Part shown: positions 2,519-56,400 of the stretch, in pieces | How positions within the stretch are numbered: position 1 is the first letter of the stretch | Layout: every line of letters starts with the position of its first letter | DNA from: Meghimatium bilineatum | Taxonomy: Eukaryota > Mollusca > Gastropoda > Stylommatophora > Philomycidae | Direction: 5' to 3' | Assembly: GCA_034231615.1 (NCBI GenBank) | Contig: CM067312.1 | Span: forward strand, 2,087,001-2,151,000 | Length of the DNA stretch: 64,000 bases | Notes under the pieces: generated by a model | Databases searched by the model: none | The model's input: only the letters and a program-made list of their open reading frames with translations | Told to the model about the DNA's origin: nothing | Made by a program: the position numbers and the translations under genes

Positions 2519-5500
2519 GTCAGTTCTGTTTCTCAAATTACACATCACTGTTTTACAACACGGACATGTTGCAATCATTGTTGGTCTGACATTACAGTAT
2601 ATATATATATATACACATATATACGTGGGTGCGTTATTTATCATGTTTCTCTGGTTAACACATATTTCATCCATTTATGATTCTACGTATACTTATTCTA
2701 ATAGCGTCAGATATATTTACATACGTGTATGTTATTTATCATTTAATTTATAATTCTCAAACATTTACATCTGACATTCACCTTTGATACGTCATACATC
2801 TCCATTACTCCCCCACTTCTTCAGACTCCAATGCAACTCTATTCTAGCTTTTTCAATTATGTCTTAGGGAATGCACCAATAGTTTCAACAAAATTCGTTG
2901 GATTTGTAATAAATAAACGGAATGAGTTTCGTATTTATTCCGTCGAAATGTTCCTTTTGTTTAGTTCGACGGAAAAAATAACCGAACTGAACCAAGGCGG
3001 ACGTGCGTATTCAACAATTATATAGTATAAGTATAATATAATTATACATTATATTATATATTATAGAGAAACTGTATTTAAATGTATAAAAACAGAGAGG
3101 ACTGTGTAGAGACATGATCGCCTACGCCGGAATATGGTAGCAATGAATGAATGAATGAATATATTATGGTATTTAAATAGTATTAATATTGCGACATTAT
3201 AAAACCGGGGATGGGGATATATGGACGGTGTTGCTGGGGTGTATGCATAGATACAAGGTGATAGGGTGATTGGTAACAAAAACCTATTAAAAAAATAAAA
3301 TAATTATTTTATATTTGTAAACATAACAATCCTACATTTGAAGCAAACAATCCCTTAACGATCATGTTACGGTATGACCACAATATAAATATCACTGACA
3401 AAGAAAAATCACATTTCCTGATAACGTATAATATAGTTCGGTCGATAATTCATATTATTCAGTTGAACTTTTCATGAAAAATATCTGATTCACTGATACC
3501 ACATTTGCATATGATTTTATTCTCCTCATGACCTTAGGAATTCATAGTTTTACACATTGATAGGTAGATTGCAAAAGTGCACACAGTTTTTTTACCTATA
3601 TAAGCAGAGCAAACAATTCACTTAATTCTACATGTTACAGTAACAAAAAAATTATGCAAAGGCCTGTGTCCTCCTTACATTCGTGCCAACTACAAATACA
3701 AACAGGAAATGTGCGGTAGTTATCATTACTTCCAAAGTGTATGTAAAACATGTATCGTTTATGATCAAATAGTCTTGTTTTTTATTTCTTGTGCCATCTA
3801 TGGTGAAGAGGAATAGGTGTATTTAAACATTCCATAAATAAAGGTGACTGCAAACACATCGTTGTGAGAATGAAATGAATAAAGTATTAGTTGATATTGT
3901 TATAATGCCTTGATATTTTAAAATATTCGGTCAATGTGAGAACAGATATTTGCACATCAACTATTTCCTTCGGATTCTGATTCGAGCAGATAGACTACTG
4001 CTAACGGCTGGATAAAATGCAAACTATCTTGTTGGTAATATGTATCTTGCTTGTGATGCACATGCACTTCACATTTTCCCCAGTACTCAATGTCTATTTA
4101 TATGAGCAGATGGCGTGTTATGTTTGTTACAACAAACAGTCCCTGTTTGCTGTTGCTCATTGATCATTGACACAAGCGAGTGTATTTATTTTTTTAAATG
4201 GCACATTATGTACATTCGAGAAACCTGTATACATGTATAATTTAAAGATACGCTGTATTAATTTATTTATATTTGTAAGGACAAACAAACTGGGTTGACA
4301 TTGTCGTGAAGAATTTCAAGTTCGATCCAAAAGCTCTTTTCGATCTAACTATAGTAATGAAGTTTTCCAGTTTTGAGAAACAGTAATTCCAAATGAATAA
4401 CATGAATTATAGGACACACTATAATACAATCTACCAGTACCAAGCGACATCATTCATGGCCATTTTCCATCTCTGACTTAGCGGAAAACACTGAGATTAG
4501 TTATCCTCTACAATTCGACTCGAAGTAAATGTTACTCGAAGATTTTTTAACAAATAAAAAGGAAATGATATCAAAATGTAAATATATTATTGTATGTTAT
4601 GCAATCACATCTATATAAATGTATGCTGATCTGGAGAAATTATCTTATTTTTATATAAATGTTTGTTCATTATATTGTTGTTATCAAATATATTGACACA
4701 TAAACTGATCAAGCAGAATAGCTGATCCATATCGTTTTACATAGAGGTTCTCATACACGTTGGAGTAGGGTTGACGGTCATATAGCTCATATAAGGAAAA
4801 ACTAGATAGCACAGGGATGGGTTGTAGGAGGAGAGAGATCTCGCTAGTCTTGTTCTATGATTTATATAACTAAAACCTAGGATGCACCGGGGAGCTGCGA
4901 AAGCTGTTTAGGAGTGCAGATCATTCGAATACAGATACAATATAAAGAGAGCGGTACTTGTGTGTATGGTTTTATCCAAATATATCCTTGGTATATACAT
5001 ATATACAACCACACTTAATAATACACTGTGTACCATAGGTATCTCAATGACCCAACGGATGTCAGAGACGTCTATACACCTAATATATTATCTAAATAGA
5101 TATATTTCTAAACACGAAACAAAAGATCGTTAAATCTTTAAATGGGTTGTACGAGACAATATCAAACTGTGAATAAATAGGTTCACAACAAACACGTATT
5201 AGGCACATTTTCACCAAAACAACTTATGCCCGTCATACACCAAATATCCACCAACTATAGGTCATCTATAGGCCACACATAAAACAAATACCCCGACTAT
5301 AATACACATATGAGACAACAACGTGGACTGAACTTTCACAGATATATAGAAATCATATTTATAGAGACATATATATAATCACCAATACTCATGATTATCA
5401 CCGTGGTATTTAACTAGCCACACGAAAAGTACATTATTTAGAATAGTTATATTATTGATATGTACATATATCTAGACAAGTATCTATATTTTTGTAATAT

Positions 5501-52329: not shown

Positions 52330-52713
52330 AATGTCCGATGACTACACCACAACAAAAATGCCTCAGTGATAGATAGTATTTCACTCGGACACTTTTGTCG
52401 TGGTGTAGTTATTTCTAATCCTAATATTTTTATGTTATGTGTGTAACTTGATAGAGGCATTTAGTTCGAAACGTCGACTGTGCCCTATGTATTATTGTCG
52501 ATTGTGTTAGTCGACGCTTAGTAAAAGTACATTACCTGTTTCCCACCTGAGTACTATTTCCATACGGTTTTACTAGTAGTTTTACTTGTCATTGAGTATA
52601 TTACAAAAGCGAAGAGTGGAAATGACAGCGAAATACACACGTGTCCGAGCGAAATGTGGATGCGAGATGATGGAAGGATAAGAGCAAGACGTACATAAAC
52701 ACGTAAATATATG
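52330..52713. mobile_element. Penelope-like 3' remnants, two pieces back to back
   Basis: 52420-52600 (+) matches the 3' region of the element at 16573-19169 (GTACATTACCTGTTTCCCAC, ACTAGTAGTTTTACTTG); 52605-52710 (-) matches the AAATGACA...GCGAAATGTGGATGC block of 31590-31650. A small hairpin ACTACACCACAACAAAA/TTTTGTCGTGGTGTAGT lies at 52344-52413. Confidence 0.55.
52447..52478 (+). ncRNA. Hammerhead-like motif, degenerate (Penelope-derived)
   Basis: CTTGATAG-AGGC-ATTTA-GTTC-GAAACGTCGAC repeats the layout seen at 19003 and 31531, with GAAACGTC intact and one extra base in the CUGAUGA box. Confidence 0.45.
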
Positions 52714-54056
52714 TAGAAACGAAACGAAAAAAGAGATGAATTAATTCATTGGTACCATGACTTCCAGAGTAGGCGATGATGTCTTATGTGGAAACGAAAC
52801 GAACATAGAGATGAATTCATTCATTGGTACCATGACTTCCAGCGTAGGCGATGATGTCTTATGTGGAAACGAAACGAACAAAGAGATGAATTAATTCATT
52901 GGTACCATGACTTCCAGCGTAGGCGATGATGTCTTATGTGGAAACGAAACGAACAAAGAGATGAATTAATTCATTGGTACCATGACTTCCAGCGTAGGCG
53001 ATGATGTCTTATGTGGAAACGAAACGAACAAAGAGATGAATTCATTCATTGGTACCATGACTTCCAGCGTAGGCGATGATGTCTTATGTGGAAACGAAAC
53101 GAACAAAGAGATGAATTAATTCATTGGTACCATGCCTTCCAGCGTAGGCGATGTCTTATGTGGAAACGAAACGAACAAAGAGATGAATTAATTCATTGGT
53201 ACCATGACTTCCAGCGTAGGCGATGATGTCTTATGTGGAAACGAAACGAACAAAGAGATGAATTAATTCATTGGTACCATGACTTCCAGCGTAGGCGATG
53301 ATGTCTTATGTGGAAACGAAACGAACAAAGAGATGAATTCATTCATTGGTACCATGACTTCCAGCGTAGGCGATGATGTCTTATGTGGAAACGAAACGAA
53401 CAAAGAGATGAATTAATTCATTGGTACCATGCCTTCCAGCGTAGGCGATGATGTCTTATGTGGAAACGAAACGAACAAAGAGATGAATTAATTCATTGGT
53501 ACCATGACTTCCAGCGTAGGCGATGATGTCTTATGTGGAAACGAAACGAACAAAGAGATGAATTCATTCATTGGTACCATGCCTTCCAGCGTAGGCGATG
53601 ATGTCTTATGTGGAAACGAAACGAACAAAGAGATGAATTAATTCATTGGTACCATGACTTCCAGCGTAAGCGATGATGTCTTATGTGGAAACGAAACGAA
53701 CAAAGAGATGAATTAATTCATTGGTACCATGCCTTCCAGCGTAGGCGATGATGTCTTATGTGGAAACGAAACGAACAAAGAGATGAATTCATTCATTGGT
53801 ACCATGACTTCCAGCGTAGGCGATGATGTCTTATGTGGAAACGAAACGAACAAAGAGATGAATTAATTCATTGGTACCATGCCTTCCAGCGTAGGCGATG
53901 ATGTCTTATGTGGAAACGAAACGAACAAAGAGATGAATTAATTCATTGGTACCATGACTTCCAGCGTAGGCGATGATGTCTTATGTGGAAACGAAACGAA
54001 CAAAGAGATGAATTCATTCATTGGTACCATGACTTCCAGCGTAGGCGATGATGTCT
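52714..54056. repeat. 75-bp minisatellite, about 18 copies, derived from an RTE LINE 3' end
   Basis: Units of CTTATGTGGAAACGAAACGA, ACAAAGAGATGAATTAATTC, ATTGGTACCATGACTTCCAG, CGTAGGCGATGATGT. Two variable sites (TTAATTC/TTCATTC and GACTT/GCCTT) recur in a four-unit order over part of the array. On the minus strand each unit holds the coding end of the adjoining RTE LINE (ATCGCCTACGCTGG, the codons for IAYAG) and its ATGAAT tail. It fills intron 2 of gene 2. Confidence 0.97.
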
Positions 54057-54990
54057 TTCCACAGTATTATGTTTGTTATTCATTTAAATATATTTTCTGC
54101 TGATTCTGCATTATGCCAGGCTTTCAAGCCATCCAACATTTTCTCACGTTGTCTGTCTCTGTCTCTCTTACCCTCGATCTTTCCAGTTGTTACGATGTTC
54201 TCCAGCCCAACTCTTCTCATGACATGACGCATGAACTGGGAATATCGTCGTCTAATACAGTTTATAAGTTCGCTATTTGAATTGACCAGTTGTAGAATTA
54301 TAGCATTACTCTTTTTAGCTGTCCATGATATTTTCAACATTTATTATATAAAGTCTCAACTATGTAGGCCTCCAGATGTTTTCTTGCAACCAGATGTTCC
54401 CCGTCTTCTGGAATGCTGCTTCTACCTGTGCTGTTCGACTGTTATGTCAGTAACGCATCTACCATTTGAAGTAATAATTGTGCCCAAATATTTAAATTGG
54501 TCTACTTGTGATGAACTATCCCGTTAACCTTGATGTTACATTTAGAAGTGTTAGATATTTTTTATTTAACCATTACCTCTGTTTTCTTGGTGTTCAAGCT
54601 CAGACCGCTGTTTGTGCTTTCTTCTACTATAGTTGTAATCAAATGGTGTAGTTCTTTTTCACTCTGTGCTACCAGAACCGTGTCGTCAGCATATCTCAGT
54701 TTATTCATATTATACCCACCAACAGCTAGTCCCTGTATATTTTCTATAGATCTAAAAATCATTTCACTGTATAAGTTAAACAGATCAGGTGATAGCAGAC
54801 ACACTTGTAAGACTCCTTGTCTTATTGGATGACATTCCCCTATTTGGTTGTTGATTTTGATTGCTGCTGTTTGATGCCAATATATGTTCTCTATTATTCT
54901 AAGGTCTTTACTATCAATGTTGATATATTTTACCAGACTGATGATTACATAAAAAGAGATTACGTAAATAAAAAATATGATTTTTCCACA
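54057..54990 (-). mobile_element. RTE-like LINE fragment, source of the 75-bp array
   Basis: Minus strand: IDSKDLRIIENIYWHQTAAI, LSPDLFNLYSEMIFRSI, MNKLRYADDTVLVAQSEKEL (catalytic YADD), SGLSLNTKKTEVMV, then RRYSQFMRHVMRRVGLENIV and GKIEGKRDRDRQREKMLDGL and, before the array, WKDIIAYAGSHGTNE. 5'-truncated at about 54990. Some frame changes. Confidence 0.88.
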
Positions 54991-55061
54991 AAAATAGTGT
55001 TGATGTGTATTCAATTTGTATGACTGACATATCCGAAACATACTTGTCTCGCAACATCTAA

Positions 55062-56400
55062 TGCATTAACAATATGAACCTGGCTATTCAATTCGCATCT
55101 AACATTTCCACTACTTCTATCAACTTCCTTGAAATCGTTGTCACTATTCATTCCCCCCCCCCCTTACCTCAGCACAACCGTTTACTATACACCTACTGAT
55201 TCACATGTCTTTCTGAAACACACTTCTCATTTTCCCTCTTCATGCAATTCTATGTCATACTTCCAGCGTCTTGGCCTGTGTCGCTTATGTAGCCATGACG
55301 ACGACTTTCTGGATAAACCATCTGAAATGATTTAGTTCTTCAGTGTTTCTCTCATTCCCTGACATCATCTTCAGTGTTTCTCTCATTCCCTGACATCATC
55401 TTCAGTGTTTCTCTCATTCCCTGACATCATCTTCAGTGTTTCTCTTATTCCCTGACATCATCTTCAGTGTTTCTCTCATTCCCTGACATCATCTTCAGTG
55501 TTTCTCTCATTCCCTGACATCATCTTCAGTGTTTCTCTCATTCCCTGACATCATCTTCAGTGTTTCTCTCATTCCCTGACATCATCTTCAGTGTTTCTCT
55601 CATTCCCTGACATCATCTTCAGTGTTTCTCTCATTCCCTGACATCATCTTCAGTGTTTCTCTCATTCCCTGACATCATCTTCAGTGTTTCTCTCATTCCC
55701 TGACATCATCTTCAGTGTTTCTCTCATTCCCTGACATCATCGTTTTATCGGTTCGTCTCAGTCTATGCTACGTATCTCACCTCGATACCTTGACTAACTC
55801 CAAGGTTTCTTCCTCCTCCTCTTACATTTCATCCCCATAACTGTACTGTCCGGCACATCCTGCTTAAACAGTATTCCTTTCTTCAGTCTGATCTTCACAC
55901 CCGTGTAGTTTTCCTGGAAGCGCCTCTGGTTGCCAATACTTGCAACACACGTCTTCATGACATCTTGCCCCGCAGACACCTTAGGTCCTCTGTTCCTGAC
56001 CATTTCGGCACTGTTCGCTACCCATGCTGTCGTTTCCACACACGTTCTTGTGTGGTTCAGATGTGTTTCATTGTGTCTCCGTTTAAGTTAATAAGACCAC
56101 TTTCACCATTGATGGGGCCTGTGCATGTGAATCCCGTAATGTGATTAACGTGATATATTTAACGCTTTAGCAAGCATCGATGAAACTGGCTGAATATTTT
56201 CTTCATGACATCAAGCACAGATAATTTACCCCTGGTGTCACACACTTCCACGGCGATGGCCACTGTAGTGTTCTTGATGTTCAGGTCTCTGCTAGGAGAT
56301 CCTTCATCACCGATGATAAATGTAGGTACGCTCATAAGGATCGCCATATTTTTTAGTTGTGTACCCTCAAGCCATTTTGACTAAATCATTTGTCTAGTTC
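55062..56400 (+). mobile_element. Second Penelope-like element, decayed
   Basis: Plus strand, starting after the catalytic box: NISTTSINFLEIVVTIH, CRLCSHDDDFLDKPSEMI, then an array, then weaker traces of the linker and of the GIY-YIG domain: HFHGDGH-SVLDVQV and SFITDDKCRYAHKDR (56240-56340) against HFNGDGHRGVLDIQV and DDKSRYALENR of 16969-18657. Old, with several breaks. It lies in intron 2 of gene 2. Confidence 0.85.
55339..55745. repeat. 31-bp minisatellite, 13 copies, inside the Penelope-like RT
   Basis: Units of TTCAGTGTTTCTCTCATTCC plus CTGACATCATC, nearly identical. The unit corresponds to the coding piece EFFRRRSFPDSIL of the whole element (FF-VSLIP-HH here), and normal sequence resumes behind it. 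Confidence 0.95.

Follow-up and report, generated by a model that had tools for sequence, protein, structure and literature searches.

The 75-bp minisatellite of this region is a tandemly multiplied insertion junction. Each of its units joins the 3' end of an RTE-like LINE, with its simple-repeat tail, to a piece of the DNA into which that LINE inserted, and exactly one such unit stands beside the same LINE in three paralogous segments of the genome. The window, that is, the whole stretch of 64,000 nucleotides that was analysed, corresponds to C15:2087001-2151000 of a 1.61-Gb assembly of Meghimatium bilineatum in 32 contigs. Positions without a contig name are those of the window, and the features discussed below are collected in Table 1.

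Table 1. Features of the minisatellite, the adjoining LINE and their surroundings in the window
Feature	Position	Strand	Basis or remark
Short solitary LINE 3' end with tail, from the same family	about 3067..3165	+	85-91% identity to the three family copies compared
Dispersed repeat into which the LINE inserted, left part	52604..52737	.	at least 36 further loci at 81-86% (40 of 1343 candidates scored)
75-bp minisatellite, 18 units	52710..54057	.	Tandem Repeats Finder and unit-by-unit listing
Unit columns 1-20, target DNA of the older dispersed repeat (unit 1 shown)	52710..52729	.	matches LINE-free repeat copies
Left target-site duplication AAAGAGAT, unit columns 21-28 (unit 1 shown)	52730..52737	.	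same 8 bp at 54953-54960
5'-truncated RTE-like LINE encoding reverse transcriptase	54012..54946	-	(ATTC)n/(ATGA)n tail and 3' end at left; last 45 bp inside unit 18
Right arm of inverted match, TTTCCACA	54056..54063	.	pairs with TGTGGAAA at unit columns 4-11; arms at the two founding breakpoints
Right target-site duplication AAAGAGAT, just past the LINE 5' end	54953..54960	.	sequence identity to unit columns 21-28
Dispersed repeat right of the LINE	55018..55330	.	at least 36 further loci at 75-78% (40 of 1947 candidates scored)
31-bp minisatellite common to four paralogs	55337..55741	.	13.1, 94.1, 17.1 and 5.0 copies

The array and its distribution

Tandem Repeats Finder (TRF) describes the array with a period of 75, 18.0 copies, 97% matches and a score of 2563. 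Seventeen of the 18 units are 75 bp long and one is 72 bp, which gives an array of about 1.35 kb, and an earlier sequence-only reading of this DNA had correctly recognized the tandem repeat. Its units, longer than 10 and shorter than 100 bp and arranged head-to-tail in one place, agree with a published definition of minisatellites (PMC3389668).

No second tandem array of the 75-bp unit was found in the 1.61-Gb assembly by paired searches with exact anchors, which cover unit lengths of about 30-126 bp and let diverged arrays and other lengths escape. Outside the window, the 40 scored of 872 candidates include full-length single units at three paralogs that carry the same LINE. A spread satellite DNA family is therefore rejected within the reach of these exact-anchor searches, which diverged arrays would escape. 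The sequence-only reading had named a LINE-free satellite at many loci as the observation that would count against a LINE origin, and that is not the pattern seen.

Make-up of the unit

The unit is a mosaic of 45 bp of LINE 3' end and simple tail (columns 31-75) and 30 bp of target DNA. Of the latter, 20 bp belong to an older dispersed repeat and the rest to the target duplication of 8-10 bp. The unit is therefore an insertion junction and not just a LINE end. The original proposal that the array consists of the multiplied LINE 3' end alone fails for the 30 of 75 bp that are flank. Columns 1-28 match the older repeat, and the next two bases (GA, columns 29-30) also fit its usual sequence and match the empty site, so the left target duplication is perhaps 10 bp long.

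The empty site is visible in other copies of the target repeat. Twenty copies were fetched from the 36 further copies listed, and 17 of these align, some with small gaps, through the point where the flanks of the window's LINE would join; the remaining three end before it. Past this join only 7-9 bp can be aligned, since the window no longer follows the repeat from there to about 55018.

This composition bears on the idea that template jumping during reverse transcription of the LINE made repeated ends at the moment of insertion. One array on another contig, described below (C18), has tandem 3' ends consisting of LINE sequence only, which is what such a process could leave. The units in the window hold target DNA and the target duplication, neither of which LINE RNA could supply at insertion, and in three paralogs a single unit accompanies this insertion. 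Template jumping is rejected for the window array on the make-up of its units, and we regard it as scarcely credible.

The adjoining LINE

On the minus strand, the last array unit passes unbroken into LINE sequence, whose end reads LWKDIIAYAGSHGTNE-stop; by eye, family copies usually end, in the orientation of the window, as (ATTC)n ATTGGTACCATGCCTTCCGGCGTAGGCGATCATGTCT. The terminal IAYAG codons and the ATGAAT tail that the sequence-only reading saw in the units are present. It had the LINE start at the right edge of the array, and the element does continue rightwards from there, but it begins at 54012, within the last unit. Its other statements about the family hold as well. The LINE end is continuous with the family, since alignments at all 37 LINE-end loci start between 53986 and 54016 and run rightwards, and the single diverged LINE end noticed at 3108-3156 is real and lies on the plus strand (Table 1). 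The 37 loci comprise 17 of the 36 single LINE-end rows from the unit search, 19 of the first 20 places of the end motif (100 of its 642 places being listed), and a tandem pair on C9 that was chosen as already known and is dropped from the 36-locus count given below.

The longest of these alignments reach 54944-54946, and beyond there none of the 37 loci matches. Positions 54565-54945 match the RVT_1 profile (E 2.2e-14) from profile position 95. One family copy (L028) extends upstream to cover profile positions 34-107 with a weak match (E 1.3e-4) under the curated cut-off, so that the truncation at the 5' end of the window copy falls inside the reverse transcriptase. Reverse transcriptase, 5' truncation and AAAGAGAT on both sides identify the element as a LINE, that is, a non-LTR retrotransposon. 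The name RTE-like reflects only a presumed resemblance of its C-terminus to BovB-type RTE elements.

A marker base connects the array to this particular copy. The stretch GATGATGTCT is found in 17 of 18 units and in the three paralogs, and the 72-bp unit is the one without it, whereas in 34 of 37 family copies its second G is replaced by C. The marker rejects another LINE copy as the source of the units and supports the view, already taken in the sequence-only reading, that the array derives from the LINE copy adjoining it.

As a separate observation, L085 (C2:121989805) is a nuclear copy of mitochondrial DNA. Its COX1 stretch (a Pfam match) has five internal TGA codons and can be read through with the invertebrate mitochondrial code, under which an ND2-like frame can also be seen by eye.

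Paralogs that keep a single unit

The same LINE with the same flanks and exactly one unit is found at C15:1967765, C8:59199747 and C8:59383715. The C15 paralog is collinear, with gaps, over 50.3-61.2 kb of the window at 93-98% identity (mostly 96-98%), and the C8 paralogs match about 45-63 kb, their main pieces being 83-91% identical. Sequence beside the array gives divergences of 3.3% between window and C15, 5.3-6.2% between the two C8 copies and 8.9-10.0% between window and C8, and 131 informative sites support the tree ((window,C15),(C8a,C8b)) against 6 that oppose it. Because the same LINE occupies the same site in all four paralogs, its insertion predates the segment duplications. The array is either younger than the oldest segment duplication or was lost from the other copies, and the single-unit paralogs may themselves be arrays that were collapsed in assembly.

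Other tandem repeats in these segments also differ in length between paralogs. The 31-bp array has 13.1 units in the window and 94.1 in C15, with a range of 5.0-94.1 over the four paralogs. Gains specific to the window have occurred away from the LINE, in a 51-bp array with 4.1 copies and a 29-bp array with 2.8 copies; in both C8 paralogs each is present as about one unit, and the alignment with C15 stops short of the two arrays. A gain specific to C15, again away from the LINE, is a 60-bp repeat with 2.0 copies that is represented by one unit in the window and in C8a.

We consider the following history highly probable. A 5'-truncated RTE-like LINE would have inserted into one copy of an older dispersed repeat, duplicating 8-10 bp of its target. 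Later duplications would have carried the whole segment to four or more sites, of which C15 and C8 have two each. In the line leading to the window copy, a 75-bp piece across the LINE 3' junction, comprising 20 bp of flank, the target duplication, the tail and 34 bp of LINE end, would have been duplicated in tandem. This founding duplication, with about 1 bp of homology, would have been an end-joining or template-switch type of event. Slippage or unequal exchange between 75-bp units, with partial homogenization, would then have raised their number from two to 18. We infer the joining step, the mode of expansion and the timing; the insertion with its target duplication, the single unit at three paralogs and the breakpoints are observed directly.

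Founding breakpoints

The breakpoints of the founding duplication can be located by comparing the single-unit state with the junction between units, where GATGATGTCT is followed by TATGTGG. This comparison yields 1 bp of homology. The overlap is 1 against one C8 locus; it is -5 against C15 and -1 against the other C8 locus because point changes adjoin the junction in these two. The left breakpoint lies 20 bp beyond the target duplication and 30 bp beyond the tail, and the right breakpoint lies 34 bp inside the LINE, so that neither touches the simple tail. Direct repeats of 5-10 bp, as in the Haber-Louis model, were not found at the founding breakpoints. No direct match in the 10 bp around each of the two is longer than 4 bp, a length reached by 72% of random segments.

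These positions decide against the most direct explanation in the sequence-only reading, in which a LINE 3' terminus with a simple tail acts as the seed and the tail drives amplification in four-unit blocks. Every unit does hold the tail and the LINE end. Nevertheless, with breakpoints on either side of the tail and hardly any homology between them, seeding of the array at 52710-54057 by the tail is not supported, and as to breakpoints this explanation is refuted here. Taken as a whole, including the evidence from other LINE ends given below, it is unlikely.

An inverted match is present where direct repeats are lacking. The 8-bp arms TGTGGAAA and TTTCCACA lie 2-6 bp from the two founding breakpoints, and 389 of 20000 75-bp segments drawn at random from the window (1.9%) do equally well. 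A hairpin of these arms might have brought the breakpoints together and triggered the founding duplication. However, the last unit with its right flank folds no better than shuffled sequences (z -0.84; 41 of 200 as good), and in none of the three single-unit paralogs are both arms exact: C15 is without both, one C8 copy without the right arm and the other without the left. The match is, moreover, one case that was tested after being noticed. We judge a role for such a hairpin to be distinctly unlikely, and an end-joining or template-switch event with about 1 bp of homology remains the preferred founding step.

Variation among the units

Columns 34 and 51 hold most of the departures from the commonest unit; among the units of 75 bp, unit 1 has diverged furthest. 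Column 34 is C in units 2, 5, 9, 12, 15 and 18 (steps of 3, 4, 3, 3 and 3), and column 51 is C in units 6, 10, 12, 14 and 16. When eight lags were examined with three measures in these 18 units, with p values left uncorrected, agreement of whole haplotypes was best at lag 4 (0.50, p 0.06), column 34 peaked at lag 3 (p 0.011) and column 51 peaked at lags 2 and 4 (p 0.036 and 0.022). The claim of a four-unit order of variants, and with it of amplification in blocks of about 300 bp, is not established by this pattern. A four-unit block is possible, and a three-unit block is no less so.

The variants also raise a question of timing. At column 6, unit 1 and the C15 paralog have A, and units 2-18 and both C8 paralogs have G. 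This distribution suggests that the array is perhaps older than the split between window and C15 and shrank to one unit at C15:1967765. The unit there agrees with unit 12 in having C at both column 34 and column 51, and the 31-bp array testifies that array lengths change in these segments. On the other hand, recurrent change is an alternative explanation of column 6, which by eye is G in 16, A in 3 and C in 1 of the 20 repeat copies, and the LINE usually has C at both of the other columns, 34 and 51. At column 51, where C is thus usual in the family, both C8 paralogs and 13 of the 18 units have A. An origin of the array before the split is thus conceivable and deserves attention, though we lean against it.

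The two preceding ideas can be combined into birth without direct repeats, assisted by the inverted match, of an array that existed before the split and was erased to a single hybrid unit in one C15 copy. We consider this combination very unlikely. If it were true, the four paralogs would record both the birth and the near-death of one minisatellite. The preferred history remains one in which the junction was duplicated in the lineage of the window.

LINE ends as sites of tandem repeat formation

A 16-base motif from the LINE end has 642 exact copies in the assembly, 18 of them within the array. Searches with exact anchors find tandem LINE ends at three loci, namely the window array and one locus each on C9 and C18, as against about 620 other exact end motifs. 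The last two answer the question, raised in the sequence-only reading, of whether other arrays adjoin LINE 3' ends. At C18:42741605 (positions 736-1048 of L086, C18:42740700-42742700), a 62-bp unit of purely LINE sequence is repeated 5.1 times at the LINE 3' end, and the tail motif CATT occurs at both breakpoints, giving 4 bp of homology. At C9:57787928 (positions 995-1151 of L063, C9:57786928-57788927), a very short LINE end forms a tandem pair with a 72-bp unit and 2.2 copies, and TTCATTC at both breakpoints gives 7 bp of homology. At these two loci the tail motif supplies the homology, so tails can take part in tandem formation. The general claim that a tail can seed tandem LINE ends thus gains support at C18 and C9, but not from the array in the window.

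Such events are few. Of 36 LINE ends selected without regard to repeats, two have arrays within about 60 bp, whereas randomly placed windows in the same loci would give 5.4. The rarity of tandem ends among the exact motifs, together with this count, argues against the tail as a general seed, as does the lack of a firm four-unit period against amplification in such blocks. Minisatellites with units of at least 10 bp and a TRF score of at least 80 form 31 merged arrays in the window and occupy 16.5% of its sequence; 39 arrays occupy 10.5% of the 108 kb at the 37 LINE-end loci. As tandem ends are few, arrays near LINE ends are few and arrays have been gained without a LINE end, LINE ends do not look like preferred array seeds. 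The LINE end in the window looks like one of many sites at which minisatellites arise. Most likely, the array is a neutral by-product in a genome where minisatellites form often, and no function needs to be invoked.

One further candidate for a tandem LINE end, at C14:59763449, was rejected. It consists of 80.6 copies of the 17-bp unit CTGGTAGGTGATGATGT, and BLAST gives no match of the window LINE in 3067 bp of that locus; its resemblance to the LINE end is taken as chance.

Two other observations concern the surroundings of LINE ends. At L012 (positions 1262-2037), a 42-bp unit without LINE sequence is repeated 18.5 times in an array that touches the LINE tail. At C1:113490045-113520621, six LINE ends of the family lie on the same strand at a spacing of 5.7-7.1 kb, perhaps as a macrosatellite or a tandem segmental duplication that carries the LINE.

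Relation to known tandem repeats

With 45 of 75 bp from LINE end and tail, continuous with the LINE, and a remainder that matches an older dispersed repeat, the array belongs to a known kind, the transposon-derived minisatellite. Reviews describe satellites from the 3' regions of L1 and CR1 elements and minisatellites from Alu, B1 and LTR elements (PMC6947457, PMC9659126). The common cetacean satellite, according to these accounts, comes from an L1 3' end (PMC9659126, PMC6947457), and the chicken HinfI satellite from the CR1 3' UTR and part of ORF2 (PMC9659126). In both, as in the window, LINE 3' sequence makes the repeat. Unlike these satellite families, the array in the window is a single one of 1.35 kb at one locus, and its source is an RTE-like LINE with a simple-repeat tail. 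No published tandem array of an RTE 3' junction was found in the literature searched.

In the Haber-Louis model, as summarized in PMC6947457 and PMC3389668, a unique segment is duplicated and expansion between units follows, with a requirement for direct repeats of 5-10 bp. The window array shares the order of duplication and then expansion, but differs in having about 1 bp of homology. The requirement as stated in these papers is fitted by the C9 pair, with the 7 bp of TTCATTC, and nearly fitted by the C18 array, with the 4 bp of CATT. For human tandem repeats derived from transposons, the figure given by Ahmed and Liang (2012, PMC3389668) is that the two established mechanisms explain about 6%, and the same source describes most founding events as having neither flanking direct repeats nor an incomplete end unit. 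The near-absence of breakpoint homology in the window agrees with that low figure. Like the human minisatellites described there, the window array repeats part of a transposon in place and lacks direct repeats; it differs from them in that its unit straddles an insertion junction and its single-unit state is kept in three paralogs.

The merit of the present case lies in this preserved single-unit state and in breakpoints that can be read. The founding events of minisatellites are seldom visible, the single-copy state usually being gone. Three paralogs keep that state here, and the founding breakpoints are therefore readable almost to the base. Since minisatellites make up 10-17% of the DNA sampled and segmental duplicates are available for comparison, this genome would be well suited to collecting further pairs of loci that show a tandem repeat before and after its birth.
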